Below are positions 17,840-35,313 of a stretch of 35,926 nt of DNA, one piece after another. Below the pieces are notes generated by a model, which saw nothing but the letters and a program-made list of their open reading frames with translations, made no database searches and was not told the DNA's origin. The position numbers and the translations under genes were made by a program. The first letter of the stretch is position 1, and each line of letters starts with the position of its first letter. This DNA is from Geobacter sp. (GTDB taxonomy: Bacteria > Desulfobacterota > Desulfuromonadia > Geobacterales > DSM-12255), in assembly GCA_009886125.1 (NCBI GenBank), contig VFJK01000115.1, forward strand, positions 1 through 35,926, read 5' to 3'.

Positions 17840-17914
<75 letters not shown>

Positions 17915-19086: not shown

Positions 19087-19299
19087 ATGACTGACAAACT
19101 GATGACCCAAAGAGAAGTGAAAGAGATTACCGGATTGGCCGACAGTACCCTTGAACAATGGCGGCTCAAGGGCAAAGGACCGAAGTTCATTAAGCTTGGG
19201 CGCTTGGTGCGTTACCGTACGTCAGATGTGCAGGCGTACATTTCCGGCTTGCGAGGATTCGCCAGCACCACCGAGGCAGACACAGCCAAAGGACAATAG
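19087..19299 (+). CDS. AlpA/excisionase-like helix-turn-helix protein
   Basis: The 70-aa product has the MerR-like winged HTH of AlpA and HTH_17 proteins: LMTQREVKEITGLADSTLEQWR, then GPKFIKLGRLVRYRTSDVQAYI. Such proteins in tRNA-inserted elements act as transcriptional activators of integrase genes or as recombination directionality factors. A strong AAAGGAGA precedes the ATG. The replication gene begins 2 nt after its stop, so the two are coupled. Whether it regulates excision or replication here is an inference. Confidence 0.85.
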   Translation: MTDKLMTQREVKEITGLADSTLEQWRLKGKGPKFIKLGRLVRYRTSDVQAYISGLRGFASTTEADTAKGQ

Positions 19300-19301
19300 C
19301 C

Positions 19302-21695
19302 ATGTCTCAAGAAGATGATTTCAGACAGGCTATGCAGGCCGCCGGGATTGACCCGCCCGCCGAACTTCTGGCCGATGGTGCTTTGCACCGTTTCAGCTCT
19401 ACTGGCGACCGTTCAAAAAATTGCTGGTATATCCTGTTTGCCGATGATCCGGCAGCGGGTAAATTCGGCTGCTGGAAGCGGGGCATTGCCGAGACGTGGT
19501 GTAGTAAAGGATACCAGAGTCTTGACCCTGAAGAAAAAGCCCGTTATGCGGCAAATATGGAAGCCGCAAAACGCCAGCGGGACGCCGATTTATCCCGCTT
19601 GCAGGCCGATTGCCGTTCATGGTGCGCCGACAGGTGGAAGCAGTCCAAAAACGCCAGCGACAACCACTCCTATTTGCAGAAAAAGGGTGTCCATGCCTAC
19701 GGTCTGAAGGTGATGAAAGATTCTCTCATGGTTCCGCTTTACGATACTGCCGGGAACATCCAGGGGATGCAGTTCATCCAGGCAGACGGGAGCAAGACCT
19801 TCAAGACCGGGACTGCCAAGCAGGGGAGTTATTACCCCATAGGCAAGCCGAAGGATAATACCCTGCTGATCTGCGAAGGGTACGCCACCGGTGCAAGCCT
19901 GCATGAGGCCACCGCCCACGCTGTAGCAGTTGCCTTTGATGCAGGTAACCTCAAGCCGGTTGCCGAGGCGCTGCGGGCAAAATATCCCGCCCTGCGCCTG
20001 ATTATCTGCGCTGACAATGATCAATGGAGTGAGATAAACACCGGCGTTGTCAAGGCTACTGAAGCGGCCCGAGCCGTGGGCGGAATGCTAACAATTGCTA
20101 ACATCCCGGACAACGGCAGCAAACGGACCGACTTCAACGACTTGCATCAGATTGCAGGAATTGGAGAAATTAGGAGACAAATAGAGACGGCAGAAGAAAT
20201 TGGCCTGAGTTTGCCTAAGCTGGAAACCGGAAATACCCTAACAAAACCTAACATTGAAACAGACGCTGAACCACTTCCGCTTACCCGCCCCATGCAGGCT
20301 AATGAACCGTTCCCGGCTGAAGTTCTTCCGCCTGTCATGCGTGCGGCTGTCTTACGTGTGCATGAGGTTGTCCAGGCACCTCTGGACATGATTTGTCAAT
20401 CCTTCCTGGCAGCGGCGACGCTGGCAGTGCAGCCCTATGCGGATATTCTGATAGACGGCAGACGTTTCCCAGTATGCAATAACTTTGTTGCCGTCGGTGA
20501 ATCAGGAGAACGGAAGTCAGCTACCGACCGGATCGCAACCGGCCCGATCAAGGAACGGCAGCGCAATGAATGTGAAATCTTCTATCAGGGGAAGCAGTCG
20601 CATGAAGCGGAAACGGCGGCATGGGAAAAGGCTCGTAAGGCGGCGCTGAAGGAAGATAGCAAGGATGTCATCGAGGCGCTGCTGAAGCAGTTGGGTGAAG
20701 AGCCAAAGCATGTTCAGCCGTTCTACCTGTTTGAAGAGCCTTCATTCGAGGGGATAGAGCGGGCTTATGCTGAAGGGCGCTACACGCTGGGGCTGTTCTC
20801 CGATGAAGGCGGGCGCTTTCTGGGTGGCTATGCCATGAGCAAGGACAACCAGACCAAGACCGTCACCGGGCTGTCAAAGCTCTGGGATGGTGAACCGATT
20901 GACAGGGTACGGGGCGGCGACGGCTTGAGCGTCCTCTATGGGCGGCGCTTCTCCATGCACCTGATGATTCAACCGATACTCTGCGGGAATCTTTTCGGTA
21001 ACGCCATGATGACCGGTCAGGGGTTTCTTTCCCGTTGTCTCTGTTCCTATCCTGCATCAACAATCGGCTGGCGTCCGTATAGGGCGCAAGACTTGAGCGC
21101 CGATTCCGCCATACTTGCCTACAATGCCGCCATCAACGGTATTCTGGACAAACCTTTGCCGCTGGATCAACGCGCTGAAATGGGATTGAAACCGGCAATG
21201 TTGACTTTGGCAACAGATGCAAAAAATACCTGGATCGCCTTTGCCGATCACATCGAGATATTGCAGAGAGAAGGCGGCGACCTCTACCCGATCAAGGGTT
21301 TTGCCAGCAAGGCAGCAGAACATGCCGCCCGGATTGCCGGTGTTCTGTCAATCTTCGAGACTCCTGATTCTGCGGAGATTTCCGCCGATGCTGTAAATGG
21401 TGGTATTGCCATTGCGCAATATTACATCGGTGAGGCGCTGCGTCTGTTCCATTCCGCCAGTGACGATCAAGAGCTGATACTTGCCCAGAAGGTCTTTGAC
21501 TGGGGGATGCAGCAGGGGGGCGGCATGATAGCCCTTGCCGAACTGTACCGCTGCGGGCCAAATGCTGTTCGGGATAAAAAGACTGCCACCAGGATGATAG
21601 AGATTCTGGAGCAGCACCATAGGACGACAAGGATTGAAGGGGGCGCAGAGATTAACGGCAAGCCTCGCCGGGATGTCTGGCAGCTGCGGGGTTAA
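19302..21695 (+). CDS. Toprim and DUF3987 replication protein (primase/helicase-like)
   Basis: The 797-aa protein begins with a Cys-containing segment resembling primase N-termini of mobile elements. A Toprim domain follows (about residues 185-290): LLICEGYATGASLHEAT with the catalytic Glu, then LIICADND with the Asp pair, and DFNDLH. From about residue 330 it matches DUF3987, with a Walker A-like GESGERKSA near residue 400. The combination is typical of satellite and plasmid replication initiators that prime and unwind their own origin. It is coupled to the AlpA-like gene upstream and the small zinc protein downstream. Catalytic activity is inferred only. Confidence 0.85.
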   Translation: MSQEDDFRQAMQAAGIDPPAELLADGALHRFSSTGDRSKNCWYILFADDPAAGKFGCWKRGIAETWCSKGYQSLDPEEKARYAANMEAAKRQRDADLSRLQADCRSWCADRWKQSKNASDNHSYLQKKGVHAYGLKVMKDSLMVPLYDTAGNIQGMQFIQADGSKTFKTGTAKQGSYYPIGKPKDNTLLICEGYATGASLHEATAHAVAVAFDAGNLKPVAEALRAKYPALRLIICADNDQWSEINTGVVKATEAARAVGGMLTIANIPDNGSKRTDFNDLHQIAGIGEIRRQIETAEEIGLSLPKLETGNTLTKPNIETDAEPLPLTRPMQANEPFPAEVLPPVMRAAVLRVHEVVQAPLDMICQSFLAAATLAVQPYADILIDGRRFPVCNNFVAVGESGERKSATDRIATGPIKERQRNECEIFYQGKQSHEAETAAWEKARKAALKEDSKDVIEALLKQLGEEPKHVQPFYLFEEPSFEGIERAYAEGRYTLGLFSDEGGRFLGGYAMSKDNQTKTVTGLSKLWDGEPIDRVRGGDGLSVLYGRRFSMHLMIQPILCGNLFGNAMMTGQGFLSRCLCSYPASTIGWRPYRAQDLSADSAILAYNAAINGILDKPLPLDQRAEMGLKPAMLTLATDAKNTWIAFADHIEILQREGGDLYPIKGFASKAAEHAARIAGVLSIFETPDSAEISADAVNGGIAIAQYYIGEALRLFHSASDDQELILAQKVFDWGMQQGGGMIALAELYRCGPNAVRDKKTATRMIEILEQHHRTTRIEGGAEINGKPRRDVWQLRG

Positions 21696-22061: not shown

Positions 22062-22949
22062 ATGGAACAGATGAATTTGTTAGGTCCCCCGGAAGATGAA
22101 ATCGCAAAATCCCTTCTCTCTAATCTGCTGGATCAAAGCCGACTCTACCACCAATCAAAAGACTACAAAGAACTGCTGGACTTCATAACCAGGTTACGCA
22201 ACTTCGCGCCCTTTAACGCTTTTATTCTCAACCTGCAGAAGCCAGGTTTACGGTTTGCCGCATCGCAACACGACTGGCGGCAGCGTTTCGGGAGAGACGT
22301 AAAGGAGGGAGCACGACCGCTGCTCATCCTCTGGCCCTTTGGCCCGATTGCGCTCGTTTATGATGTTGACGATACTGAAGGCGAGCTACTCCCAGACAGT
22401 GTGCTTCAGGCTTTTCGGGCTGTAGGCGAATTGACAAAGAATCATATCATTGGCTTTATGCAACCGCTTCAGGGGCAAGGCATTGAACTGAAGCTGATAG
22501 AGTATGGTGATGCCCATGCCGGACATATACAATCCGGGCAGAAACCCGAAGGCCTGGAGATCGGACAACGTTCAACCGATGCCAAGAAGCGTCCTGCGTA
22601 TCTTATCCGCGTCAACAGCAAGCATGATCCCAATGTCCAGTTCGTCACCTTGATACACGAACTTGCCCACCTATATCTTGGTCATCTCGGACCTGACAAA
22701 TATCTGAAGATAGCTGAACGCAGTCGTCCCAAGCATGAGCAAAGAGAGCTTGAAGCTGAATCGGTCGCCTATCTCATCTGCAAGCGTAACGGGGTAGAAT
22801 CCAAATCTGAAGAGTATCTGGCAAACTTTGTCAACGCAAACACGACTATGGGAAACCTTGATTTTTACCTGATCCTGAAAGCTGCCGGTCAGATTGAGAC
22901 AGTCCTACAACTTGGGGATATGGTCAGTTTTGGGCCTCGTGTGAAATAG
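22062..22949 (+). CDS. ImmA/IrrE-type zinc metalloprotease with ArdC-like N-terminus
   Basis: The 295-aa protein has a zincin motif, HELAH (residues 199-203) in VTLIHELAHLYLGHLG, with a third-ligand Glu in ELEAESVAYLICKRNG. These are typical of ImmA/IrrE (DUF955) proteases, which cleave repressors in mobile elements and stress systems. The N-terminal half (FAPFNAFILNLQKPG, then DWRQRFGRDVKEGARPL) resembles the N-terminal region of ArdC-like proteins. No HTH domain is present, unlike many ImmA-family antitoxins. The next gene, a coiled-coil membrane protein, starts 31 nt downstream with a strong ribosome-binding site. The substrate is unknown; the partner gene product or an element repressor are candidates. 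Confidence 0.82.
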   Translation: MEQMNLLGPPEDEIAKSLLSNLLDQSRLYHQSKDYKELLDFITRLRNFAPFNAFILNLQKPGLRFAASQHDWRQRFGRDVKEGARPLLILWPFGPIALVYDVDDTEGELLPDSVLQAFRAVGELTKNHIIGFMQPLQGQGIELKLIEYGDAHAGHIQSGQKPEGLEIGQRSTDAKKRPAYLIRVNSKHDPNVQFVTLIHELAHLYLGHLGPDKYLKIAERSRPKHEQRELEAESVAYLICKRNGVESKSEEYLANFVNANTTMGNLDFYLILKAAGQIETVLQLGDMVSFGPRVK

Positions 22950-22980
22950 CTTTATATGAAGTCAATGATAAGGAGGACTT

Positions 22981-23997
22981 ATGTCCACAGAGTTAATGCA
23001 AATCGAAACCCGAGAAGCTTTGGATCGTATACAACAATTTGATGTATTATCCCTCGGTCGTGAAGATGACTTAGGGAGACAATTGAATTTTTCAGAAGCC
23101 ATACCGGAAGCAAAGGCTATTATTGGTGTTTATAAACGTATTCCATTGTCAGTTCTTGAGGACTTTTCGGATACCCAACTGAAAGTAATAAAAAATAATG
23201 CTCAGGCAGATTTCAATACCTTCAATCAGATACTTTCTTTTGACGCCACTGCCGGTGATGCTTCTTCAAGCCGAACCACTATCATAAATAATATCAAAGC
23301 TCGGCGAGACCCACTTTTTGATCTACTCTGGCAATTCAGTGCCTATGGTGTTGCCCGGATTACCGACACGGCTTTGTTGGAGACACAAGCTCGTTCAACA
23401 ATCCAATCTATTAAAGATCAATCCGAAAAGCTAACCGAACAACTACAAACTGCGAAGGTGGAGGCAGATAATGCTCTATCAGCAATTCGAGCTGTAGCTG
23501 CTGAACAAGGCGTTTCTCAGCAGGCAAATTACTTTAGAAAGGAAGCCGATGAGCAAGAAATCTTGGCCGATCAATGGCTCAAATATACATACAGATTTGC
23601 GACTGCAGTCGGTATGTTTGCTGTCATTAGTTTATTTCTTCATAAAATCGAATTTATCAAGCCAGCGAATAATCCCGAAACTTTTCAGTTGATCACCAGT
23701 AAGTTTCTTGTTTTTGCCGTGTTAGCTTACTTGTTGATTATGGCTGCTCGCAATTACACCACACATAAACATAACGCTGTAGTAAACCGTCACCGCCAAA
23801 ATGCTTTACTTACCTACCGTGCTCTTGTTGAAGCCGCTGTAAACCACGGGACTGAAGACATTGTGCTTGCACATGCTGCTTCATGTATATTTTCACCTCA
23901 AGAAACAGGCTTTTCTCATGGTAAGGGAGACTCATCATCAGGCTCGAAGTCTGTTCTTGAACTAATGACTAAGAGCATCACAAAGGTTCAAGAATGA
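22981..23997 (+). CDS. coiled-coil protein with two TM segments, unknown; possible defence effector
   Basis: The 338-aa product is not assigned to a family. It has a helical N-terminal region, a coiled coil at about residues 131-190 (LETQARSTIQSIKDQSEKL), two membrane segments at about 205-225 and 240-258, and a C-terminal helical domain of ~80 residues. The bases look more AT-rich than those of hsdM and hsdR, suggesting separate acquisition. It is preceded by AAGGAGGA and follows the metalloprotease by 31 nt, with hsdM 73 nt downstream. The architecture resembles membrane effectors of abortive-infection systems, but this rests on layout and context only. Confidence 0.75.
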   Translation: MSTELMQIETREALDRIQQFDVLSLGREDDLGRQLNFSEAIPEAKAIIGVYKRIPLSVLEDFSDTQLKVIKNNAQADFNTFNQILSFDATAGDASSSRTTIINNIKARRDPLFDLLWQFSAYGVARITDTALLETQARSTIQSIKDQSEKLTEQLQTAKVEADNALSAIRAVAAEQGVSQQANYFRKEADEQEILADQWLKYTYRFATAVGMFAVISLFLHKIEFIKPANNPETFQLITSKFLVFAVLAYLLIMAARNYTTHKHNAVVNRHRQNALLTYRALVEAAVNHGTEDIVLAHAASCIFSPQETGFSHGKGDSSSGSKSVLELMTKSITKVQE

Positions 23998-24070
23998 TCC
24001 ATTCTAACCAGAAAGGCGGAGTATAAACGCTCCATATTTCGCGGTATCATTGCCATACTAAAGGAACCAC

Positions 24071-26035
24071 ATGCAAAACCATTCCGAAATCGCTGAGTTT
24101 CTCTGGAAAATAGCCGACCTTGTTAAAGATGACTACGACGCCAAGGATTATGAAGACGTTATCCTTCCTTTTACCCTGCTACGCCGCCTTGACTGCGTCT
24201 TGGAGCCGACCAGGCTGGCGGTTCGTGAAGCTGCGGAGAAGTATAAGACACAGCCTGACAACCTGCGCGATATGCTCCTGAAAAAAGCCGCCGGGCAGTC
24301 GTTCTACAACACCTCTGAATATTCCCTAGTTGAACTGCTCAAGCGCCCCAACGACCTTGGCCCCAACTTTTCCGCCTACCTGTCCGGATTCTCGGCCAAC
24401 GTCAAGGACATCCTCTATAACTTCTCCGGTGGCGAGGAAAAAGGCTTGAATCCCATCTACGAAACCCTGCTGAGAAAGCGCCTGCTGTTCAAGGTGACGC
24501 AAGCTTTCAGTGACGTGCAGCTTGATCCCGAAACCGTGGATAATCACGGCATGGGAACGATATTCGAGTATCTCATCCGCAAGTTCAAAGAGGCCAGCAA
24601 CGAAGCAGCTGGGCAGTTCTATACCCCCCGTGACATTATTCGCCTGATGGTCAAGCTGATGTTCGAGCCGGACCGCGACAAACTGGCCAAGGAAAAGCTG
24701 CTCGGCATCTATGACCCTGCCTGCGGGACCGGCGGCATGCTGACCATTGCCAAGGAATACCTCTTGGCAGCGATCAACCCGGAACTGGAAATTTCCGTAT
24801 TTGGCCAGGAGATCAACGAAAAGACCTACGCTATTGCCAAGGCCGATATGCTGATGAAGGGGGAAGACCCGGAGAACATCAAGCGAGAAAACACCCTCAG
24901 TCATGACCTGCTCCCCGGCAGGCAGTTCAACTACATGCTCTCCAATCCTCCCTTTGGTAAGGACTGGAAGAACATCCGCGATGAGATTGAGGCAGAGCAC
25001 GCCCTTGGCGATGCTGGTCGCTATGGCCCCGGCCTTCCTGATGTTGGCGACGGTGCGATGCTCTTCCTGCTGCACAAGATGAGCAAGATGACACCCAATG
25101 GCTCCAAGATCGCCATCATTTTCAATGGCTCCCCCCTGTTCAACGGCGACGCCGGTAGCGGCCCCAGCAACATCCGCAAACACATCCTTGAAAACGACTG
25201 GCTTGACGCCATCGTGGCAATGCCCAATGACCTCTTTTACAACACCGGTATTGCCACCTATATCTGGCTGATCAACAACAACAAACCTGTTGCCCGACGT
25301 GGCAAGGTCCAGCTCATCAACGCAACAGGAGAAGAGTTCCGTACCATGCTGCGGCGCAACCTCGGGAAAAAGCGAGTGGAGATCAGCGAAGACCAGGCGT
25401 CTTCCATCCTCGGCATCTATGACGCCTTAGAAGAGTCGAAATTCTGCAAGCTCTTTGATACGACCGATTTCGGCTATACCAAGGTGACTGTTGAGCGCCC
25501 CCTACGTCTGCGCTTCGATCTGACGCCGGTACAACGGGATGCATTGCGGCTGGATGCATCAATCCTCAAGTTGAAAGATGACAAGGGTCAACAGCTAGAA
25601 ACGGCCCTTGACAAGGTAACAAACAAAGTCCCCTGGTTGGACGATGGACTGTTCTTTGCCGCCCTGACGGATGCGCTCCCCTACAAGCTCTCCCAAGGAT
25701 TGATCAAGAGTATCCGGTCAGCCCTTGCTGTGCGCCATGAAACCGCCGAACCGGTGCGAGATGCCGATGGAAAACAGGTGCCGGACTCTGAATTGAGGGA
25801 TTGTGAGAACGTACCGCTGAAGGATGATATTGACGCCTACTTTGCCCGTGAGGTGCTGCCGCACGTGCAGGATGCCTGGATGGACCGGAGCAAGGACAAA
25901 ATCGGGTATGAAATCAGCTTCACCAGGTATTTCTACGAGTATACCCCGCTGCGCTCCACCGGGGATATTGCCGCCGAGCTACTGGCGCTGGATGAGGAAA
26001 CGGAGAATCTGTTGCGGGAGATAGTCCGGGGATGA
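24071..26035 (+). CDS. hsdM: type I restriction-modification DNA methyltransferase subunit
   Basis: HsdM methylates adenine in the bipartite site selected by HsdS and is also required for restriction. The 654-aa protein has the N-terminal HsdM helical domain (EIAEFLWKIADLVKDDY, then VILPFTLLRRLDCVLEP). The SAM-binding motif I DPACGTGGML starts at residue 215, and the catalytic NPPF starts at residue 292, characteristic of N6-adenine methylases. A longer than usual C-terminal region (from about 470) is present. Its stop overlaps the hsdS ATG (ATGA). A good AAAGGAA site precedes the start. Confidence 0.94.
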   Translation: MQNHSEIAEFLWKIADLVKDDYDAKDYEDVILPFTLLRRLDCVLEPTRLAVREAAEKYKTQPDNLRDMLLKKAAGQSFYNTSEYSLVELLKRPNDLGPNFSAYLSGFSANVKDILYNFSGGEEKGLNPIYETLLRKRLLFKVTQAFSDVQLDPETVDNHGMGTIFEYLIRKFKEASNEAAGQFYTPRDIIRLMVKLMFEPDRDKLAKEKLLGIYDPACGTGGMLTIAKEYLLAAINPELEISVFGQEINEKTYAIAKADMLMKGEDPENIKRENTLSHDLLPGRQFNYMLSNPPFGKDWKNIRDEIEAEHALGDAGRYGPGLPDVGDGAMLFLLHKMSKMTPNGSKIAIIFNGSPLFNGDAGSGPSNIRKHILENDWLDAIVAMPNDLFYNTGIATYIWLINNNKPVARRGKVQLINATGEEFRTMLRRNLGKKRVEISEDQASSILGIYDALEESKFCKLFDTTDFGYTKVTVERPLRLRFDLTPVQRDALRLDASILKLKDDKGQQLETALDKVTNKVPWLDDGLFFAALTDALPYKLSQGLIKSIRSALAVRHETAEPVRDADGKQVPDSELRDCENVPLKDDIDAYFAREVLPHVQDAWMDRSKDKIGYEISFTRYFYEYTPLRSTGDIAAELLALDEETENLLREIVRG

Positions 26036-27360
26036 GCCAATCTAATTTTAATGACATGGTTGTCTCCTGGATGGGTACGATTCCGACAGGATGGGAATTA
26101 CGTCGGTTAAAGACATTAATTTCTGAACCCATTACAGATGGCCCTCACGAAACCCCTGAGTTTCTTTCTGAAGGTATACCTTTTCTTTCTGTTGATGGTA
26201 TTCAAGAGGGTGAACTTGTTTTCGATGGATGCCGCTTTATCTCTCAGGCTGCACACAACGAATATCAAAAAAAATGTTTACCTCGTCTTGATGATCTTCT
26301 CCTTGGCAAAGCTGCATCCACTGGCAAGATCGCCAGAGTGAAGGTGGATTTCGAATTCAGCATCTGGTCACCACTCGCATTAATTCGGCCAAAGCAATCT
26401 GAAATTATTTCAGATTTTTTAGAGTATTCCCTAAAAGACTTTACGACTCAGGCGCAAATTGACTGTCTTTGTACAGCCAATACTCAGAAAAATATCAGTA
26501 TGCAGGAAATCCCGCTTTTAATCCTGAGTGTCCCTTCTAAACACGACCAACGTCGCATCTCCACCTATCTAGATGATCAGACTGCCAAGATTGACCGACT
26601 GATAGAGATGCGGCGGCGACAAATGGAACTTTTGAAGGAACAGCGAGCTGCCCTTATTCTGCAAGCCGTCACCCGAGGTCTTAATTCTGATGTACCGATG
26701 AAGGATTCCGGTATTTCCTGGCTGGGTGAGATTCCGTCGCATTGGAGTATGACTACACTTGGTCGCTTGGCAACACTTCTGCAAACAGGCCCTTTTGGTA
26801 GTCAGTTGCATTCGCATGAATACATCGAAGATGGTATCCCCATTATCAATCCCTCGCACATGGGCGAAGGATTGATCCTACATGATCCCAAATGTACTGT
26901 AGATGAGGAAACCGCCAGCCGATTATCGCGGCACTTCTTGCAGCTTGGAGACATTGTCTTTGCACGGCGAGGGGAGATTGGTCGTTGTGCTCAAGTTCAT
27001 AAAGATGAAGTCGGCTGGCTGTGCGGTACCGGAAGTATGTTAATGCGGCCAGATAGCAGAGTGCTAGAGCCTGCATTCCTCGTCACTTTATTTCAATTGA
27101 AAAACCTAAAAGAATCGTTAACACTTCAGTCAGTTGGCTCAACAATGGACAATTTAAACACTGGCATTCTTGCTGGGATAAAACTTCCATTGCCGCCTCG
27201 TGAAGAACAATCTGATATTCTACGGTTTATTCAAAGCAAGAGCTCTAAGACAGACGACCTGATTTCCGCCTATTCCCGCCAACAATCCCTCCTTACTGAA
27301 TACCGCGCCGCTCTGATTCACGAATGTGTAACCGGGCAGCGAGAAGTAAAGTTGACGTAG
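26032..27360 (+). CDS. hsdS: type I restriction-modification specificity subunit
   Basis: The 442-aa HsdS has the usual repeated design. Target-recognition domain 1 begins WMGTIPTGWELRRLK and is followed by the conserved helix IDRLIEMRRRQMELLKEQRAAL. Domain 2 begins WLGEIPSHWSMTTLG and is followed by a second conserved helix near the C-terminus (SLLTEYRAALIHECVTG). Each domain would recognise one half of a split site; the sequence itself cannot be predicted. The first domain looks more AT-rich than hsdM and hsdR, consistent with exchange of specificity domains. ATG overlaps the hsdM stop by 4 nt; hsdR follows after 51 nt. Confidence 0.93.
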   Translation: MSQSNFNDMVVSWMGTIPTGWELRRLKTLISEPITDGPHETPEFLSEGIPFLSVDGIQEGELVFDGCRFISQAAHNEYQKKCLPRLDDLLLGKAASTGKIARVKVDFEFSIWSPLALIRPKQSEIISDFLEYSLKDFTTQAQIDCLCTANTQKNISMQEIPLLILSVPSKHDQRRISTYLDDQTAKIDRLIEMRRRQMELLKEQRAALILQAVTRGLNSDVPMKDSGISWLGEIPSHWSMTTLGRLATLLQTGPFGSQLHSHEYIEDGIPIINPSHMGEGLILHDPKCTVDEETASRLSRHFLQLGDIVFARRGEIGRCAQVHKDEVGWLCGTGSMLMRPDSRVLEPAFLVTLFQLKNLKESLTLQSVGSTMDNLNTGILAGIKLPLPPREEQSDILRFIQSKSSKTDDLISAYSRQQSLLTEYRAALIHECVTGQREVKLT

Positions 27361-27411
27361 AGGTACATATACACATTTTATTTACGTAATTAGGGTGCCG
27401 GGAGAAAGAGC

Positions 27412-30411
27412 ATGCTCAAAACCAGCCGAGTTTCTGAACAGGCCGCCGAGGAAGGGATTGTTGCTTCCCTGGCTATCAGTCCTATGTATCACGAGCGGAT
27501 AAATACAAACTTTGACGCCTCATCGATGCTTGATATTGCAGAAACCGCCACATTTATCCAGGCCACCCAGCCGAAGGAATGGGCCAAGCTCAGCAAGCAG
27601 TTTTCTGGTGGCGAACAGGAGGCGCTGGCGGCCCAGCTTTCCTTGCTGCTGCAAAAGCGCGGCACATTGGAAGTGTTGCGCAACGGAGTATCATTCAACG
27701 GTATCAATCTGCAGCTTGCCTACTTCCGCCCCTCTGCCGACGGTAACCCTGAACATCAGTCCCGCTACCAGGCAAACCGCTTTGCCGTTATGCGTCAAGT
27801 GCATTTCTCCACCAAGACCCCAGACCAATCTATCGACGTGGTGGTTTTTCTCAACGGCCTGCCCATCATTTCCATCGAGTTGAAAAATCACTTTACCAGC
27901 CAAAACGTACATCATGCCATTGCCCAATATCGGCGGCGTGACCACCGGGAGCAGTTCTGGGGGCGCTGTCTGGTCCATTTCGCGCTTGATGATGATTCTG
28001 TCTACATGACGACCAAACTTGAGGGCAAGGAGACCGGCTTTCTACCCTTCAATCGTGATACCTTCAACCCAATTATTTACGAACGTTTCGCTGCTTCGTA
28101 CCTGTGGGACGACTTCACCGACGAAGATGGCGAACTGCAACCGGGAATATTGCGGGCAGACTCGCTGCTGTTGTTGATTCAAAACTATCTGCACGCGGAA
28201 CGATCCGAGAAGACCGGCAAGGAGAAGTTCATCTTTCCCCGCTTCCATCAACTCATGGCCGTGCGCAAAATGCTGGCTCATGCCAAGTCAAACGGCAGCG
28301 GCCACAATTACCTCATCCAGCATAGCGCCGGTTCCGGCAAGAGCAACAGCATTGCCTGGCTGTCTCACCAGCTTGCCAACCTCTGCGGCACGGATGGTCA
28401 GCCGGTATTCGACAGTATCGTAGTAATCACCGACCGCCGGATTCTGGACAAACAACTTCAGGACACTATCAAGCAGTTTGAGAAGATCAAAGGGGTTGTC
28501 ACCAAGATCGACCGGAACACCAAGCAGCTGGTAAAGGCGCTGGAGCGCGGCGACAAGATCATTATCACCACCCTGCAGAAGTTCGGCTTCATTGGCGAAA
28601 TGGTCAAGTTGGACAAGCGTTTTGCCATTATTGTAGACGAAGCGCACAGCTCACAGACCGGCGAAAATGTCAAAGACCTGAAGATTGTGCTGACATCGGA
28701 TGAACAACTTCGCGTGGCGCTCGACAAGGATGAAGAAGAAGAGATGGACCCGATCGAGGTGGAGCTGGAGAAGATCCAGAAGGCCCGGCAACGGCTGCCA
28801 CACCTGTCTTTCTTTGCTTTCACCGCCACCCCTAAGGACAAGACGCTGGAGCTGTTCGGCACCAAAGACCCTACCGTGAAGAAGGGTTTCCGCCCTTTCC
28901 ATCAATACACCATGCGTCAGGCGATTGATGAGGGCTTCATCCTTGACGTACTGAAAAGCTATACAACCTACAAGACCTACTTCGAGCTGATTGAAAACGA
29001 GAAAGCCGAAGGAGAGAAGGAAGTTGAAAAGCTCAAGGCGCGGCGGCTCCTGCTGGAATATGTGGATCAGCACGAGTTCGCTATCAAGCGCAAGGCCCAT
29101 ATCATCGTCGATCACTTCACCCGCAAGACCGCCCACAAAATCAAGGGACAGGCCAAGGCGATGGTCGTCACTCATTCCCGTGCCCATGCCGTTCGGTACA
29201 TGCAGGAGATCAGTAGTGTCATCAGCGAGCAGAACCTGAACTATGGCGTTCTGGTTGCCTTCTCCGGCACGGTAACTATCAACGAGCAGAAATACACCGA
29301 AGAAAGCATGAATCCACCAGGCACCGGTGACATTGCCGAGGCATTCAAGAAACCGGAACAGCGAATGCTGGTGGTGGCGAACAAGTTCCAGACCGGTTTT
29401 GACCAGCCTTTATTGCATACGATGTACGTGGACAAGAAGCTTGGCGGCGTGGCAGCAGTCCAGACCCTGAGCAGGCTCAACCGGACCGCACCGGGCAAGC
29501 AGGATACGATGGTGCTGGACTTTGTGAACAGCCAAGAGGTTATCGAGGCATCATTCCAGGATTACTACCAGCGTACTGAACTGGAAGGGGAAACCGATCC
29601 GAACAAACTCTACAATCTGAAATACTCCCTGGAAAAGATGAAGGTATTCAGTGCTGATGACGTGACCGAGTTTGTTGAGCTGTTCATTGTAAAGAAGGTG
29701 CCGTCAGAAAAGCTGCAACCGTTTTTCCAGCGTATCGTGGAGACCGGCTACAACAACCTTGCAGCAGAGCACAAAGAGAAAAAGGACTATGAAAAACTGA
29801 AAGCGGAAGCACAGGACAAATTCCGCAAGGAAACCGCCCGCTACGTCAAGCAGTACACCTTCATCAGCCAGATAATGACCTTTACGGATACCTCACTGGA
29901 GAAGTTCTACCTGTTTGCCAAGCTGTTGTTGAAACAACTCCCGTACCAGAAAAAGTCTCTGCCACTGGAAGTAGTCGAGATGATCGACATGGATAAATAC
30001 CGGGTGCAGGAGGAGCAGAACGGCAGCATTGTACTTGTCGGAGAAGATGGAACGCTGACCCCTTCAGCGGACGACGGGCACCGTGGCGGAAAAGAGCAGG
30101 AGAAAGAGACTCTTAAAATCATCATCCAGAAATTGAATGAGGAGTATGGCATCCCCTTTGAAGAGGCCGACCGGGTTATGAACGCTATCAAGCAAAAGCT
30201 GGAAGAAGACGATGCTTTGCGCTCCGCCTTCAAAACCAGCGACATTGATCACCTGCGGCGCGACAAGCTCAATCGCAGCATCAAGGATGCCTTCCTGAAT
30301 AACGCCGATGAGTTCCTGAGCTTCATGGCAAAGACTGAAACAGATCCCGGCTTTGGTAAGTTTTTCTTCTCGGAAATGTTCAAGTGGTATTCGGGGACGG
30401 TGAAGGGATAG
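27412..30411 (+). CDS. hsdR: type I restriction endonuclease subunit
   Basis: HsdR is the motor and nuclease of type I systems. The 999-aa protein has an N-terminal PD-(D/E)xK nuclease with GLPIISIELKN (Glu156, Lys158). The SF2 helicase has Walker A HSAGSGKS (residues 304-311), IVDEAHSSQTG (DEAH at 409-412) and FFAFTATPKDKTLELFG. Helicase domain 2 contains VVANKFQTGFDQPLL and TLSRLNRTAPGK. A helical C-terminal region, which would bind HsdM/HsdS, completes it. All key motifs are intact, so the system looks active. GGGAGAAAGAG precedes the ATG. Confidence 0.95.
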   Translation: MLKTSRVSEQAAEEGIVASLAISPMYHERINTNFDASSMLDIAETATFIQATQPKEWAKLSKQFSGGEQEALAAQLSLLLQKRGTLEVLRNGVSFNGINLQLAYFRPSADGNPEHQSRYQANRFAVMRQVHFSTKTPDQSIDVVVFLNGLPIISIELKNHFTSQNVHHAIAQYRRRDHREQFWGRCLVHFALDDDSVYMTTKLEGKETGFLPFNRDTFNPIIYERFAASYLWDDFTDEDGELQPGILRADSLLLLIQNYLHAERSEKTGKEKFIFPRFHQLMAVRKMLAHAKSNGSGHNYLIQHSAGSGKSNSIAWLSHQLANLCGTDGQPVFDSIVVITDRRILDKQLQDTIKQFEKIKGVVTKIDRNTKQLVKALERGDKIIITTLQKFGFIGEMVKLDKRFAIIVDEAHSSQTGENVKDLKIVLTSDEQLRVALDKDEEEEMDPIEVELEKIQKARQRLPHLSFFAFTATPKDKTLELFGTKDPTVKKGFRPFHQYTMRQAIDEGFILDVLKSYTTYKTYFELIENEKAEGEKEVEKLKARRLLLEYVDQHEFAIKRKAHIIVDHFTRKTAHKIKGQAKAMVVTHSRAHAVRYMQEISSVISEQNLNYGVLVAFSGTVTINEQKYTEESMNPPGTGDIAEAFKKPEQRMLVVANKFQTGFDQPLLHTMYVDKKLGGVAAVQTLSRLNRTAPGKQDTMVLDFVNSQEVIEASFQDYYQRTELEGETDPNKLYNLKYSLEKMKVFSADDVTEFVELFIVKKVPSEKLQPFFQRIVETGYNNLAAEHKEKKDYEKLKAEAQDKFRKETARYVKQYTFISQIMTFTDTSLEKFYLFAKLLLKQLPYQKKSLPLEVVEMIDMDKYRVQEEQNGSIVLVGEDGTLTPSADDGHRGGKEQEKETLKIIIQKLNEEYGIPFEEADRVMNAIKQKLEEDDALRSAFKTSDIDHLRRDKLNRSIKDAFLNNADEFLSFMAKTETDPGFGKFFFSEMFKWYSGTVKG

Positions 30412-30474
30412 GGTGGTTATTTTGTTTCGTACTGTCTTGTTGTGTATTAACTATACCTGTGGTATTTAATAGAT

Positions 30475-31077
30475 ATGTGCATTCATCTGACATTCAAATA
30501 TGAAACCGCGACACAAGCCCTGAACTATCTTGCGGCCAAATCAGGCGGCACAATCAACAAACTGAAGGCTCTGAAACTGATTTTCTTTGCTGATCGTTTT
30601 CACGTGAGGAAATACGGGCGTCCGGTAACTGGTGACGAATATCTGGCCATGACATACGGCCCGGTAGCATCTAGCGTCAAGGACATTGCCGAGATGTCCG
30701 GCTTTCTTGATTCTAAAGTAGCCAGATATGCCAAGCATTATATTAAGCCGGTCAACAAGTATGGTTTCCGTTCTATTGCCGCCGTTGACTCCGACCAGCT
30801 ATCAGAAAGCGATATAGAGGCGCTTGATTTTGCTTGGAACAACTTCAGTAAATTTGGCAAGTATGAACTTGCAGAGATTACCCACGCATACCCGGAATGG
30901 AATCGCCACGAATCAGCCGTGAAGCATTTTGGCAATGTGCGAATGGATTACCTTGATTTTCTGGGTGACCCACCTGCCGACTGCGACCCTTGTTTTCCAC
31001 TAACCGCTGATGACAAGATAGTAGTTGCTGAAATGCTCAAGGAGAAGTCGGAGATTGCGCGGCTGATTCTCGGTTAG
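30475..31077 (+). CDS. Panacea (DUF4065/SocA-like) antitoxin
   Basis: The 200-aa product carries the Panacea domain core: INKLKALKLIFFADRFHVRKYG, then PVTGDEYLAMTYGPVASSVKDI. This domain is a versatile antitoxin module that neutralises many unrelated toxins in bacterial and phage TA pairs, and is related to the proteolytic adaptor SocA of Caulobacter. There is no clear ribosome-binding site before the ATG. The upstream 60 nt are AT-rich and may hold the promoter. The putative toxin starts 5 nt after its stop. Antitoxin-first order is common in TA operons. Confidence 0.85.
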   Translation: MCIHLTFKYETATQALNYLAAKSGGTINKLKALKLIFFADRFHVRKYGRPVTGDEYLAMTYGPVASSVKDIAEMSGFLDSKVARYAKHYIKPVNKYGFRSIAAVDSDQLSESDIEALDFAWNNFSKFGKYELAEITHAYPEWNRHESAVKHFGNVRMDYLDFLGDPPADCDPCFPLTADDKIVVAEMLKEKSEIARLILG

Positions 31078-31082
31078 CCGTT

Positions 31083-31526
31083 ATGGTTCAGATTTCGCCA
31101 GAAGTCCAGATAAGAGCAGCTATCAAACCAGGTTCGGTTTATTACTTCCCGGAAGCCTCGTTTTCCTCCCCAGAGCCCCATTATTTCGTCGTCCTAAATC
31201 ACAACCCTTTAACCGATACGTTTCTTGTCCTGGTCTGCGCTTCATCACAGATCGAGAATGTAAAGAGACGACGGCTTAACTGCCCGGCTTCCACGCTTGT
31301 GGAAATGACACCTGCTGATTATGCCAGCTTTACCAAGCCAACAATCATTGATTGTAATGATGTCCATGAACACACGATTGATGATCTGGTAAGCATGCGG
31401 GGTAAATACGACTTGAAAACAAAGCCGGAGATGGCTACCGCTATTCTTGAGACCCTCCGCCAGGCTGTTATTGCCAGTCCGCTTGTCACCGGCAAAATCA
31501 AGGCAATGCTGAAGCCGTCCGCCTAA
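31083..31526 (+). CDS. putative toxin of the Panacea-linked pair
   Basis: The 147-aa product has no confident family assignment. Its N-terminal half (KPGSVYYFPEA, then PHYFVVLNHNP and FLVLVCASSQIENVKRRRL) is beta-rich and loosely recalls the SH3-like barrel of PemK/MazF-type proteins. The rest is helical. Position directly behind a Panacea antitoxin, with a 5-nt gap, makes a toxin role likely. It ends only 3 nt from the convergent zinc-motif gene, with no terminator between them. RNase activity is a guess from fold resemblance. Confidence 0.7.
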   Translation: MVQISPEVQIRAAIKPGSVYYFPEASFSSPEPHYFVVLNHNPLTDTFLVLVCASSQIENVKRRRLNCPASTLVEMTPADYASFTKPTIIDCNDVHEHTIDDLVSMRGKYDLKTKPEMATAILETLRQAVIASPLVTGKIKAMLKPSA

Positions 31527-31529
31527 CTG

Positions 31530-32135
31530 TTATCCGATCATTCCTTTGAGAGCCTCCATTCTCGACTCCAGCCAATCTAATCCCTGCCATTCTGCATTGC
31601 GATATTGCCAGCGTAACCGTTCCCATGTCCGTTGGTGCATCCCTTTCGGCTTCAGATAAAGGCTCTTGTCGTCGCCACCCAGCCTGGCTTTTATCTTGTC
31701 CCGCACCCTCCAGCTTCGGTCTATCGTATCCTCATTACAGCTTGCATAAGTCAACTTGAGACAGTGGCGGCAGGCTACATGCTCACCGTTCACGACCACT
31801 ATAGCAACACGGCGGGAACAGTAGGGGCAGACGAACCAAGGGCGCGATCCGCCGTAAGCACATGCGGTATGTGCAAGGCTGACAACCTGCTCTTTTGATT
31901 GCCACTCGTCGATTGAGTTTATTCGCCACCGGTAGGTAACCGTCATGCTCTCATCAGCTACGATCCGGATATTGACATTGCCCGACGGCTGACCGTTTCT
32001 GTTCCAGGATAAGCTGTAATACCCGCTCCGCAACATTCCTTGTTTTTTCAGATAACGGATGTCCAGGCGACTTGAAGCGTCAAGAGTACCCTTTGTGCTG
32101 TATCGGTAACGACGACCTGAACCGCAACCACCCAT
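31530..32135 (-). CDS. zinc-motif protein, unknown function
   Basis: The 201-aa product opens MGGCGSGRRYRYS and contains CPYC and CRHC in the centre, a probable zinc ribbon, and ends in a Trp/Arg-rich helical tail (RTWERLRWQYRNAEWQGLDW). Proteins with this beginning recur in integrative elements, but no role is known to me. GGAGAAAATC precedes the ATG. A promoter with perfect -35 and -10 hexamers and a palindrome over the -10 lies upstream, so it is probably separately regulated. Convergent with the toxin gene. Confidence 0.75.
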   Translation of the reverse strand: MGGCGSGRRYRYSTKGTLDASSRLDIRYLKKQGMLRSGYYSLSWNRNGQPSGNVNIRIVADESMTVTYRWRINSIDEWQSKEQVVSLAHTACAYGGSRPWFVCPYCSRRVAIVVVNGEHVACRHCLKLTYASCNEDTIDRSWRVRDKIKARLGGDDKSLYLKPKGMHQRTWERLRWQYRNAEWQGLDWLESRMEALKGMIG

Positions 32136-32178: not shown

Positions 32179-32214
32179 GGCTGTATTATAAAACAGCCTG
32201 TCATGCCTTGTCAA
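32179..32214 (-). promoter_or_regulatory. consensus sigma70 promoter with an operator-like palindrome
   Basis: On the minus strand a perfect TTGACA (32214-32209) is followed after 18 bp by a perfect TATAAT (32190-32185). The -10 box sits inside a perfect palindrome, GGCTGT (32179-32184) and ACAGCC (32193-32198) around 8 bp, which looks like a repressor site. The start codon of the zinc-motif gene is about 50 nt downstream. Confidence 0.8.
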
Positions 32215-32237: not shown

Positions 32238-32939
32238 TTATTGCGGTTTTAACCTCATTTTTCTCTTTATGTAGGTTGCTGCTTCCGGCACACGCACCTC
32301 TATCCATATCAAGTGATTATCGCGCCGTAACTCAAACGGTTCATCAGATTGTGGACGTTGTGCTATCCACTGGAAGAACTCTTGTTGCGGATATTTTCGA
32401 TAGTATGCGTCAAGAAGGGTTTCCATGTTGGCGGTAAAATTGTAAAAAAACCAAGGGTTCTTGACCTTCCTCCACTCTAGGATTTTCCAGGCAGCAGTTG
32501 CCGCATCTTTTATCTTCAGCCCGAAATACATTCTGATGCTGTTCACATCGAAATAAAAAGCCTGCCTGTTCCTGGAATAGAGTTTTTTGATGGTTTCCTG
32601 TTTGTCTTCATCGGAAAGGCCAAACGCATCATCCAGAGTAAAACTAAGTTCATGCTCCATCTCTCTTTTCTGAAAATGGTATTCAAAAGCTTCTGCCACG
32701 GACTTGAAAGCCCATTTGGGGACAGGGACGGTGCCGCTGCAACAGTCATTGAAATAATCAGGATTGCAGTTCAGAAAAGAACGAAAGAAGCTGGTTAGGA
32801 TCAGGAATTTATTTTCTGCTTTGTGGTAATCTGATTCAGAAAGTTGTGCTTCTTCAAAAAAGTGCTTACAGATGCCGTCCTCGTTGATTTCACGTTTGGG
32901 AAAACATCTATGTGGTTTACTGGATTCCTTGTCTGACAT
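32238..32939 (-). CDS. unknown protein B of a tandem paralog pair
   Basis: The 233-aa product is mainly helical, with no TM, signal peptide or known domain. It is clearly homologous to the gene upstream on the same strand. Shared blocks include VPKWA followed by VAEAF, ETIKKL with RN, a VN.RM.FGL segment, W near the KNP..FYNF region, LLDAY or MLDAY, and a C-terminal RVPEAATYIKRKMRL (RVPEAATFIKRKIRL in the partner). Its ATG is one base after the upstream stop, with GGAGGG inside the end of that gene, so the two are coupled. Both are far from identical, indicating an old duplication or two subunits of one complex. Confidence 0.75.
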   Translation of the reverse strand: MSDKESSKPHRCFPKREINEDGICKHFFEEAQLSESDYHKAENKFLILTSFFRSFLNCNPDYFNDCCSGTVPVPKWAFKSVAEAFEYHFQKREMEHELSFTLDDAFGLSDEDKQETIKKLYSRNRQAFYFDVNSIRMYFGLKIKDAATAAWKILEWRKVKNPWFFYNFTANMETLLDAYYRKYPQQEFFQWIAQRPQSDEPFELRRDNHLIWIEVRVPEAATYIKRKMRLKPQ

Positions 32940-32940
32940 T

Positions 32941-33705
32941 TCACCCTCCGCAAGTGGTCTCTGTATCTGTCTTTGGATTTCTGAGCCTTATTTTGCGTTT
33001 GATGAAGGTAGCTGCTTCCGGTACTCGTTCCTCAATCCATTTCAGGTACTTCGCCTTAAAACTTTCAAAATCAGTCTTGGCGTAACCAAGTAATTGGCTC
33101 CATTCCTGAACCCACTCCATGAAGGTCGGGAGTGGGTATGCCCGATGATAGGCATCAAGCATTGATTTCTGGCTCGCTCTAAAATTGTAGTAGAATCCGG
33201 GCTTGTTGTTCTTCTGCCATTGAACGATTTTCCAGGTAACAGCAACAGCATCATTGACGTTTAAGCCAAATACCATTCGGACCATATTGACTCGATCAAG
33301 GAACCTCTTCTTATTGCGCTGTTGCAGCTTCTTGATAGTTTCTTTCTTGCTTTCGGACTGAATGCCAAAGGACTCTTCAAGGGTTGCTTCAAGATCATGT
33401 TCAATATCCGTTCGATGGGCGTAACGCTGGAAGGCTTCTGCTACGGCCTTTACGGCCCATTTCGGCACACGAATATTGCCGTCAGTCTCATCAAGCAGGC
33501 CAGGGACGTCTGATAGTAACGCTTGATAGAAAGAGGAAAGGTATTTGAAGTTCTCGCCTTCATTCTTGTAATCTTCAGCTGTGTACTTGCCCGTAGCAAA
33601 GAGTTTCCAGTAATCTTCATTTTCCTTTGTGATGCCCAGCAGATAAGATTGAGAGGCCATGCCTATGCCAGTTAAACCGGCAATTGCAGGATGCGGGTAG
33701 GTCAT
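32941..33705 (-). CDS. unknown protein A of a tandem paralog pair
   Basis: The 254-aa product is helical, rich in Lys, Glu and aromatic residues, with no recognised domain. A variable N-terminus (MTYPHPAIAGLTG) is followed by a helical block (NFKYLSSFYQALLSDVPGLL) and the core shared with protein B. The ending EERVPEAATFIKRKIRL is very basic, which suits nucleic-acid or protein binding. GGAGGGCG precedes the ATG. It lies downstream of the integrase on the same strand, separated by a GC-rich hairpin. The reading through integrase, A and B suggests a link to integration or to defence cargo, but neither is shown. Confidence 0.75.
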   Translation of the reverse strand: MTYPHPAIAGLTGIGMASQSYLLGITKENEDYWKLFATGKYTAEDYKNEGENFKYLSSFYQALLSDVPGLLDETDGNIRVPKWAVKAVAEAFQRYAHRTDIEHDLEATLEESFGIQSESKKETIKKLQQRNKKRFLDRVNMVRMVFGLNVNDAVAVTWKIVQWQKNNKPGFYYNFRASQKSMLDAYHRAYPLPTFMEWVQEWSQLLGYAKTDFESFKAKYLKWIEERVPEAATFIKRKIRLRNPKTDTETTCGG

Positions 33706-33746
33706 TGTTGCGCCCTCCGGTGGCTTATTCTCCGAGATGCTGCAAA

Positions 33747-33801
33747 CGCGGGAAACCGGGTCGGAGTGTCCCGGTTTGTCGGCCCGTCGGCCTATCCCGC
33801 G
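33747..33801 (-). other. GC-rich nested hairpin between integrase and paralog A
   Basis: An inner perfect stem AAACCGGG (33753-33760) and CCCGGTTT (33770-33777) sits within an outer CGCGGG (33747-33752) and CCCGCG (33796-33801). There is no T-run, so it is not a standard terminator. It may attenuate transcription from the integrase into the paralogs or stabilise the message. Confidence 0.55.
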
Positions 33802-33810
33802 AAATCGTGT

Positions 33811-35121
33811 TTATGCTTGTAGTGCCGCTTTCTTCCTACGGTTACCGTCGATATTGATAACCTTGGCCGGCTGCTTCTCTGCCAGCATTCCTTTGATCGT
33901 ATCCGTTACCTGCTGCATTGGCAATCGGAGTTTATCCACGCTCAGGATGATGTAACCCTGTGTCACGTCCTTGTCGGAATGGTTCATCAGGCGCTTGAGT
34001 ACCGAATAAGAAACCACGCTTTCGGCAATGCTGGCAAATGTCCGACGGAGGTCATGCAGGCAGAAGCGGATTCCCGGCTTGATCTTGTCGGCTGGCTGTT
34101 CCTTGATGAGCTTTTCCAGATCCTCGTCAGTCTCGACGCCGTTGAGCATCTTCTTTGTTTCTCGCTCGATGAAATCAACCTGACGCTTTGTCTCGCTCAG
34201 GTGACCGCTTTTCCCGCTGCCGGGAAATACAAAGTCGTTTTCTCTGACATCAAGTCTGCCCTGGAAAAGATCTTTCAGGTAGTTACTCATTGGTAGGGTG
34301 TGTGCCTTTTTGTTCTTGGCAATCTCTTTGCGAATCGTGAAGGTCTGGCCCTCCATGTCAACATCTTCCCAGAGGAGGGATAGCCCTTCATTCTCCCGCA
34401 AGCCGGTAAACATGAGCAGCAGCAGATAATCCCGAATAACCGGATTGCTGATTTTCTGGACTCCCTTATGCCATGTCGGAAGCTCATAGTCCTTCAGTAC
34501 GGTCTGGCGGCGATCCACCTTGAACCATTGCCCTTCAAGAGCATCCTTTACAAGATCACGATCCAGAGTTTCCTTGAGGCTTCGCCCAGCGAACCGATGC
34601 AGCCGACGGAACAGACGCATGACGTTGTTGCCGGTATTCGCTCCGGAGTCTTTGGCAACCTTCAGATGGCGGCGTTTAACCATATCATCGGTAATGTCGC
34701 TGATTGGTTTCTTGAGCCAGTCTGACAGGTGGCAATTGAGAAGGCTTGTATCAACCGATTTAGTGCGGTCTTTCATGGCAGGGCGGGCGGTCTGGTAATC
34801 CTCATAAACCTTTTCAAGGGTAATGCCGCGCTCCATCGACTTTGCTTTTTCCCGGTTGATGTCAATGCCCTTGCGCAGATCGGTAAAGGCGTCCTTGGCA
34901 TCATTGCGGGCATCGTCGGCAGTGGCGATGCCATGCCTGCCGAGGTTGACCCGCGTCATCTTGCCGTTGATCCGCTTGCGGACAAAGTAAACCTTTGAAG
35001 TAGCCGACACGCGCACCCCGAAGGCGGGTAACTCGGTGTCATAATAATCAACTTGCTTCCCTTTTTCAGAGTATGGTAGTTTGTCAACGGCGATTTTGGT
35101 GAGCTTGATCTTGTCGGGCAT
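33811..35121 (-). CDS. int: tyrosine-type site-specific integrase (DUF4102/P4 type)
   Basis: The 436-aa recombinase has the N-terminal DUF4102 arm-binding domain (KLPYSEKGKQVDYYDTELP, then GVRVSATSK), a SAM-like core-binding domain and the catalytic domain. The catalytic set is complete: Arg242 (FTGLRENEGLSLLW), His356 and Arg359 (HDLRRTF), His381 (MNHSDKDVTQ) and Tyr390 (TQGYI). It should integrate and excise the element at the tRNA-Gly 3' end. GGAGGTAC precedes the ATG. It reads inward from attR. Paired 11-bp-spaced repeats lie just before its start, so the integrase may repress itself by binding them. Confidence 0.95.
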   Translation of the reverse strand: MPDKIKLTKIAVDKLPYSEKGKQVDYYDTELPAFGVRVSATSKVYFVRKRINGKMTRVNLGRHGIATADDARNDAKDAFTDLRKGIDINREKAKSMERGITLEKVYEDYQTARPAMKDRTKSVDTSLLNCHLSDWLKKPISDITDDMVKRRHLKVAKDSGANTGNNVMRLFRRLHRFAGRSLKETLDRDLVKDALEGQWFKVDRRQTVLKDYELPTWHKGVQKISNPVIRDYLLLLMFTGLRENEGLSLLWEDVDMEGQTFTIRKEIAKNKKAHTLPMSNYLKDLFQGRLDVRENDFVFPGSGKSGHLSETKRQVDFIERETKKMLNGVETDEDLEKLIKEQPADKIKPGIRFCLHDLRRTFASIAESVVSYSVLKRLMNHSDKDVTQGYIILSVDKLRLPMQQVTDTIKGMLAEKQPAKVINIDGNRRKKAALQA

Positions 35122-35265: not shown

Positions 35266-35313
35266 AGCTTCCCAAGCTGAAGGTCGCGGGTCCGAATCCC
35301 GTCTCCCGCTCCA
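35266..35313 (+). repeat. attR: truncated tRNA-Gly 3' copy
   Basis: This is a 48-bp copy of the tRNA-Gly 3' half including CCA. The T-loop reads TCCG instead of TTCG. There is no 5' half upstream, so it is not a functional tRNA gene. Confidence 0.93.

Follow-up and report, generated by a model that had tools for sequence, protein, structure and literature searches.

Two tandem genes of an unnamed family beside the integrase of a Geobacter tRNA-Gly element, and the int-alpA RNA upstream of them

What role might two adjacent, related genes of no recognised family have immediately behind the integrase of a mobile element? The question is raised by a contig of Geobacter sp. (VFJK01000115.1, assembly GCA_009886125.1), analysed here over its full 35,926 nucleotides and referred to as the window. 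A first-pass annotation, made from the sequence alone, had described the genes as two divergent tandem paralogs of 254 and 233 amino acids, lying beside the integrase and matching no known family, and had proposed that both copies are kept because they form a heteromeric complex. We re-examined the pair, its relatives and its surroundings, and find that interpretation partly supported.

A tandem pair in an element at tRNA-Gly

The description of the two genes, here orfA and orfB (Table 1), holds up well. Both reading frames are intact, the two proteins are 43% identical over residues 35-243 of orfA (E 1e-53, far above chance), orfA is the next gene 3' of the integrase, and searches of Pfam, PHROGs, PADLOC and NCBIfam gave no meaningful match to either protein. 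Among the blocks listed as shared, VPKWA, ETIKKL and RVPEAAT.IKRK.RL are indeed common to both, and FYNF shrinks to YNF, the actual readings being FYYNF in orfA and FFYNF in orfB. The strongly basic common C-terminus was also borne out, the last 40 residues having a pI of 9.9 in orfA and 10.0 in orfB. The annotation further held that the genes, one base apart, are made together. The one-base gap is there, and the junction reads GCGGAGGGTGAAATG, that is, a stop, one base, and then a start preceded by GGAGG; this placement of the orfB ATG makes translational coupling plausible and production of the two proteins together likely, where it had been stated as fact.

Against its counterpart in the closest relative (L003, below), orfA has a dN/dS of 0.115, indicating purifying selection, and the pseudogenisation that the annotation had named as a ground for doubt does not apply to it. 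Between orfA and orfB, pS is 0.80 and pN 0.38; synonymous sites are saturated, and for this reason we give no ratio for the pair. AlphaFold models, built from alignments of three sequences each, have a pLDDT of 54.6 for orfA and 58.2 for orfB, and because they are poor we take from them only that the proteins are helical. The two are tandem copies from an unnamed family whose fold is probably helical; orfB, the diverged second copy, may be dispensable.

Table 1. Features of the element and its attachment sites (positions in the window)
Feature	Position	Strand	Description
tRNA-Gly	17840-17914	+	3' end is the attachment-site repeat
Attachment-site repeat, first copy	17867-17914	+	3' end of tRNA-Gly, 48 nt
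AlpA-like helix-turn-helix protein	19087-19299	+	70 aa; HTH_17 2.3e-8, 34.6 vs cut-off 27 bits; Phage_AlpA 21.4 vs 21 bits, a narrow pass
Primase-like protein	19302-21695	+	797 aa; DUF3987 4.2e-84; Toprim_3 1.6e-11
Cargo	22062-31526		M78 peptidase, 338-aa unknown ORF, hsdM- and hsdS-reading ORFs, HsdR-type subunit, Panacea-domain protein, 147-aa ORF
Two-CxxC-pair protein	31530-32135	-	201 aa; gene directly following orfB; retained in L003
orfB	32238-32939	-	233 aa; diverged tandem paralog, one base downstream of orfA
orfA	32941-33705	-	254 aa; first ORF 3' of integrase; P-x-W / FG[LI]..A family member
int-alpA RNA (Rfam RF02996)	33732-33802	-	whole model 1-71; 41.3 bits, gathering cut-off 35.8
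Tyrosine integrase	33811-35121	-	436 aa; Phage_integrase 6.9e-18; Arm-DNA-bind_3 5.4e-11
Attachment-site repeat, second copy	35266-35313	+	beyond integrase

The pair belongs to a 17.4-kb element bounded by tRNA-Gly repeats, the copies of which lie 17,399 bases apart and align over 61 nt at 90% identity, with one mismatch in the 48-nt core (counted by hand). Reading inward from the right end on the minus strand come the integrase, orfA, orfB and the CxxC protein, for which no family exceeded its cut-off; inward from the left end come the AlpA-like protein and then the Toprim-DUF3987 primase. A Panacea-domain protein and the type I restriction subunit are part of the cargo, whose hsdM and hsdS are putative, assigned by reading the ORFs. 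Between orfB and the CxxC gene (32185-32214, minus strand) stands a 12/12 match to a sigma-70-type promoter, TTGACA-18-TATAAT, which suggests that the CxxC gene has a promoter of its own; the scan found 6 promoter-like sites where 4.5 were expected. The first-pass annotation was silent on the attachment repeats, the AlpA-like ORF, the primase and the structured RNA upstream of orfA.

The closest relative of the element was found in a Geobacter metagenome-assembled genome (L003, the same DNA as genome G005). Identity to the window is 89% for the integrase, 85% for orfA and 94% for AlpA, the attachment core matches at 47 of 48 nt (blastn, 97.9%), and the CxxC protein and primase are retained; homology to the window spans about 6.4 kb from att to its end, and a search of L003 for a second att copy found none. 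Restriction genes and window-type cargo ORFs are absent from L003, and orfA is kept. Just past its att core lies a second, different integrase-reading ORF (L003 2104-3405), which suggests neighbouring elements.

L003 has a single gene in place of the pair, with no separate orfB. This gene tracks orfA up to the common end block (for example, 28/30 to orfA versus 14/30 to orfB in alignment columns 220-229), its last ten codons favor orfB (23/30) over orfA (19/30), and the DNA 3' of it aligns with the DNA 3' of orfB. An orfA-like body joined to an orfB-like tail and flank indicates that the one-gene and two-gene forms are separated by an exchange in the common 3' block, near RVPEAAT..IKRK, as judged from a tail signal that is short.

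A diverged family in the slot behind the integrase

A search with orfA over 147 relatives gave matches in its own genome, in G005 and in G127, where the matching protein (P0004) is 23% identical to orfA (E 1.3e-7). The G127 protein in turn matched 4 of 277 class genomes, G062 being new (P0004 versus P0005, E 6.2e-6), and profile A3 added G119 (3.4e-9). Profile A5 (P0004-P0008), which included G038 and a second G127 locus, both first spotted behind integrases, matched 11 of the 277 class genomes at E<=0.1. It newly found G098, G101, G041, G141 and G229 (1.5e-13 to 7.3e-7) and gave weak matches to G023 (0.075) and G077 (0.076); the former (L100) was retained for its slot, its PPVW block and, later, its RNA, and the latter (L101) was dropped. 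With all 14 proteins (profile A8), 15 of 317 phylum genomes matched at E<=0.1, the new clear matches being G370 (7.9e-20), G471 (5.1e-17) and G491 (1.9e-6). Profile A3 over another draw of 395 genomes matched the own genome only.

In this way a family with no curated entry was followed through 17 proteins. Its core is approximately P-x-W-(I/V/A) ... F-x-x-Y ... L-(D/E)-x-x-F ... F-G-(L/I)-x-x-x-x-A, subject to numerous deviations; a larger proteobacterial family has a similar LDEAFGL block. The relatives of orfA and orfB, each compared with some of Pfam, PHROGs and NCBIfam, matched no curated family, and no title or abstract in the open literature searched describes the family. Profile A3 matched no PDB sequence, five scans of viral contigs found no relative, and short orfA patterns scanned over genome contigs found L003 alone. 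Searches by tblastn with P0002, P0004, P0005, P0014 and the L115 protein gave nothing convincing in phages or in plasmids (best E across both, 0.1). Several candidates were rejected: iterations 1-2 of an iterated HMM, which drifted into long proteins picked for weak similarity; ten A3 matches (L019-L028, E 0.01-0.6; ORFs of L020, L025 and L028 inspected); and nine matches of the A8 search (L117-L125, E 0.02-0.08; L123 inspected).

Profiles made without orfA, orfB and L003 do not lead back to them: A5 misses all three at E<=0.1, and A9 finds nothing in G000 and G005 at E<=1. The pair is tied to the rest of the family through the G127 protein as an intermediate and through a profile-profile match of A6 to A9 (probability 96.2%, E 2.2e-9, 162 columns); comparisons with single-protein profiles gave E 1.8e-4 at 48% probability for P0007 and a weak E of 0.049 for P0008. 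The wider family around orfA and orfB appears well supported but indirect, and would unite slot genes that have diverged strongly within a single phylum. Every locus found other than the window has one recognisable copy, G127 having two on different contigs, so pairing is not the rule; mostly single-copy homologs were what the annotation had said would count against its proposal.

At 11 of 13 class-level loci the member follows a same-strand integrase on its 3' side, directly or, in G101, as the next gene but one, with a gap of 3-130 bp in nine loci, 302 bp in G023 and 445 bp, holding an 84-aa ORF, in G101. Setting aside the window as the query, and G038 and G127:C123, which were first seen via their integrases, the count is 8 of 10. 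The integrases of G101, G141, G229 and G023 were called by motif together with a small profile (E 1.9e-16 to 9.5e-8, 12-sequence set). G098 has no integrase motif within 9 kb; its 3' ORF reaches 26.5 bits against the HTH_17 cut-off of 27, and another ORF reads as a primase. G041 has no integrase directly upstream, and AlpA follows the member. On the other strand of that locus (L104), 4.5 kb from the member, an integrase adjoins the tRNA-Gly core already seen in the window (15725-15769; 45 nt, 97.8%). None of the three phylum loci (L127, L128 and L129) has an integrase motif, in 4.6, 12 and 18 kb respectively, so that constant proximity to integrases, which the annotation had asked to be checked, holds for most class-level loci and fails in the DNA fetched for these more distant ones. 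A random gene would be expected in this slot rarely, the loci here being counted raw.

We also read by eye the 3' slots of 60 integrase loci (L030-L089); besides loci already known, L031 and L057 are family-like among the slots listed. Behind related integrases, the slots of L038, L059, L075, L077, L036 and L037 hold other ORFs of 247-300 aa, among which two pairs are related (3.6e-58 and 8.4e-20), and in L036, L037 and L059 a short GGLRHLIF ORF follows the slot gene.

The int-alpA RNA ahead of the start codon

The gap between the integrase and orfA, 105 bp long, holds a copy of the int-alpA RNA, which reportedly originates from the 2017 survey of Weinberg and co-workers. The match has an E of 5.4e-7 in its own genome, and 0 of 14 control genomes match RF02996. 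A 113-nt stretch from integrase to orfA folds more stably than its shuffled versions, with a z of -2.33, 4 of 200 shuffles being equally good. The gap is identical to that of L003 at 94 of 105 positions; third codon positions agree with L003 at 287 of 436 (66%) in the integrase and 166 of 244 (68%) in orfA. A covariance model that we had built for the gap was set aside because Rfam already had RF02996.

The RNA scores above its cut-off at 6 of the 13 member loci searched (the window, G005, G101, G023, G229 and G370), and at all six it ends 21-26 nt ahead of the member's ATG, 26 nt in the window, with a purine-rich stretch between; the G023 spacing is counted from an internal ATG, 33 bases into the ORF as listed. 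It was not found at the other seven (L010, L011, L110, L029, L109, L106 and L103), nor for L104 among the best 150 candidates in genome G041. With the best 150 candidates taken per genome, at least 5 of 12 genomes (11 with members, plus G074) match RF02996, and four of these five copies had already been named. The new one (L132, G062:C83:63435-63500) stands 15 nt ahead of an ORF of 212 aa to which the family profile gives no match; the RNA may also precede slot genes of other kinds. Of the seven copies examined, six end 21-26 nt ahead of a family member. In L127, the member (3276-4266, minus strand) has the RNA 21 nt upstream and adjoins a 601-aa ORF that by eye resembles a tail tape measure protein, in what looks like a phage tail region; RNA and protein may thus travel together outside satellites.

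A proposed role, its alternatives and known systems

The slot behind the integrase has a precedent. The passages of PMC10803314 drawn on here describe PICMI115, a satellite of Vibrio that carries int, iolg and alpA along with a primase. Once iolg was deleted, this satellite no longer underwent helper-induced excision, and its transfer fell under detection; it is the one satellite for which they report that excision needs the slot gene. In those passages the authors propose an Int-AlpA-IOLG excision complex, and the iolg deletion was complemented by int and iolg jointly, with int alone rescuing an int deletion. The iolg deletion may therefore act through int.

Since orfA occupies the iolg slot of PICMI115, we take it, and orfB with it, as an accessory of the integrase and AlpA. 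The orfA/orfB family would then belong to the module by which satellite-like elements integrate and excise, with the int-alpA RNA as a leader, a reading whose chances of being right we judge to be about even. The gene is read in the direction of the integrase and, in a subset of loci, begins 21-26 nt past the int-alpA RNA. That RNA would be a 5' leader setting the amount of protein made, by acting on translation, and the protein would join integrase and AlpA-like protein in an excision complex, as proposed for iolg. Both the function of orfA and orfB in the element and the leader role of the RNA are what we infer from this arrangement. More tentatively, it is possible that RNA leader (perhaps protein-bound) and protein form one control device, setting the level of the integrase partner, timing excision and reaching phage-like elements beyond satellites. 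New here is the tie of a slot and an RNA, both already known, to one protein family; if the link between RNA and family is true, the orphan int-alpA RNA gains a target gene.

It is unlikely, though worth serious attention, that orfA and orfB instead regulate by binding RNA or DNA, for example as autorepressors on the int-alpA RNA or the gap, and take no part in an excision complex. The spacing of a structured RNA to the start codon at six loci, the helical, low-confidence models and the basic last 40 residues of the six proteins computed (pI 8.6-10.9) would all suit such regulators, but Pfam recognises no nucleic-acid-binding domain in them, P0004 is acidic overall (pI 5.3), P0010 has an acidic C-terminal stretch, and seven of the 13 loci searched lack a detectable RNA. 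That the genes are passengers or defence genes merely travelling beside the integrase is quite improbable: the restriction subunit and Panacea-domain protein of the cargo, and the restriction-like (L128) or phage-like (L127 and L129) neighbors of relatives, as read by eye, could point that way, but PADLOC matches neither protein, L003 keeps orfA without restriction genes, and the same slot is occupied in 11 of 13 loci, four of them with integrases that a search with the window integrase missed. An obligate heteromer of orfA and orfB, as first proposed, is very improbable: the tandem arrangement with GGAGG ahead of orfB and the old divergence of two intact frames would fit it, but the other loci found make do with one recognisable copy, and the closest relative has orfA and no separate orfB.

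A role for the family in integration and excision, which we prefer, can be set beside several known systems. Gram-negative PICIs, in the portions of PMC10111431 and PMC6092414 consulted, have an integrase, an AlpA-like protein and a primase as in the window; unlike in those elements, no capsid or terminase gene was recognised among the window ORFs searched. The element of one relative (L010) has an Sf6-type small terminase. The PICMIs come closer. Their iolg/icg genes, which the same passages of PMC10803314 divide among 13 families without a known function, lie like orfA beside int in elements with AlpA and a DUF3987-type primase, the PICMI primase profile there taking in DUF3987. The window element has the co-located genes by which PICMIs are recognised (int, alpA and a DUF3987 or DUF5906 primase), and orfA, like an icg gene, is contiguous with int without overlapping it. 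However, the element sits at tRNA-Gly instead of fis, and for this reason we do not file it as a PICMI. It also differs from PICMIs in having two copies of the slot gene and in placing AlpA and the primase at its opposite end, and where PICMI115 iolg overlaps int by ATGA, the window has a 105-bp gap holding an RNA. The likeness of orfA to PICMI115 iolg drawn here is one of gene position. As to the RNA, the name of which occurs in one paper of the open literature searched (PMC12370729), the window copy spans RF02996 from end to end with a score over the curated cut-off; its type in Rfam is gene/sRNA, whereas here it lies mostly just ahead of the start of one protein family.
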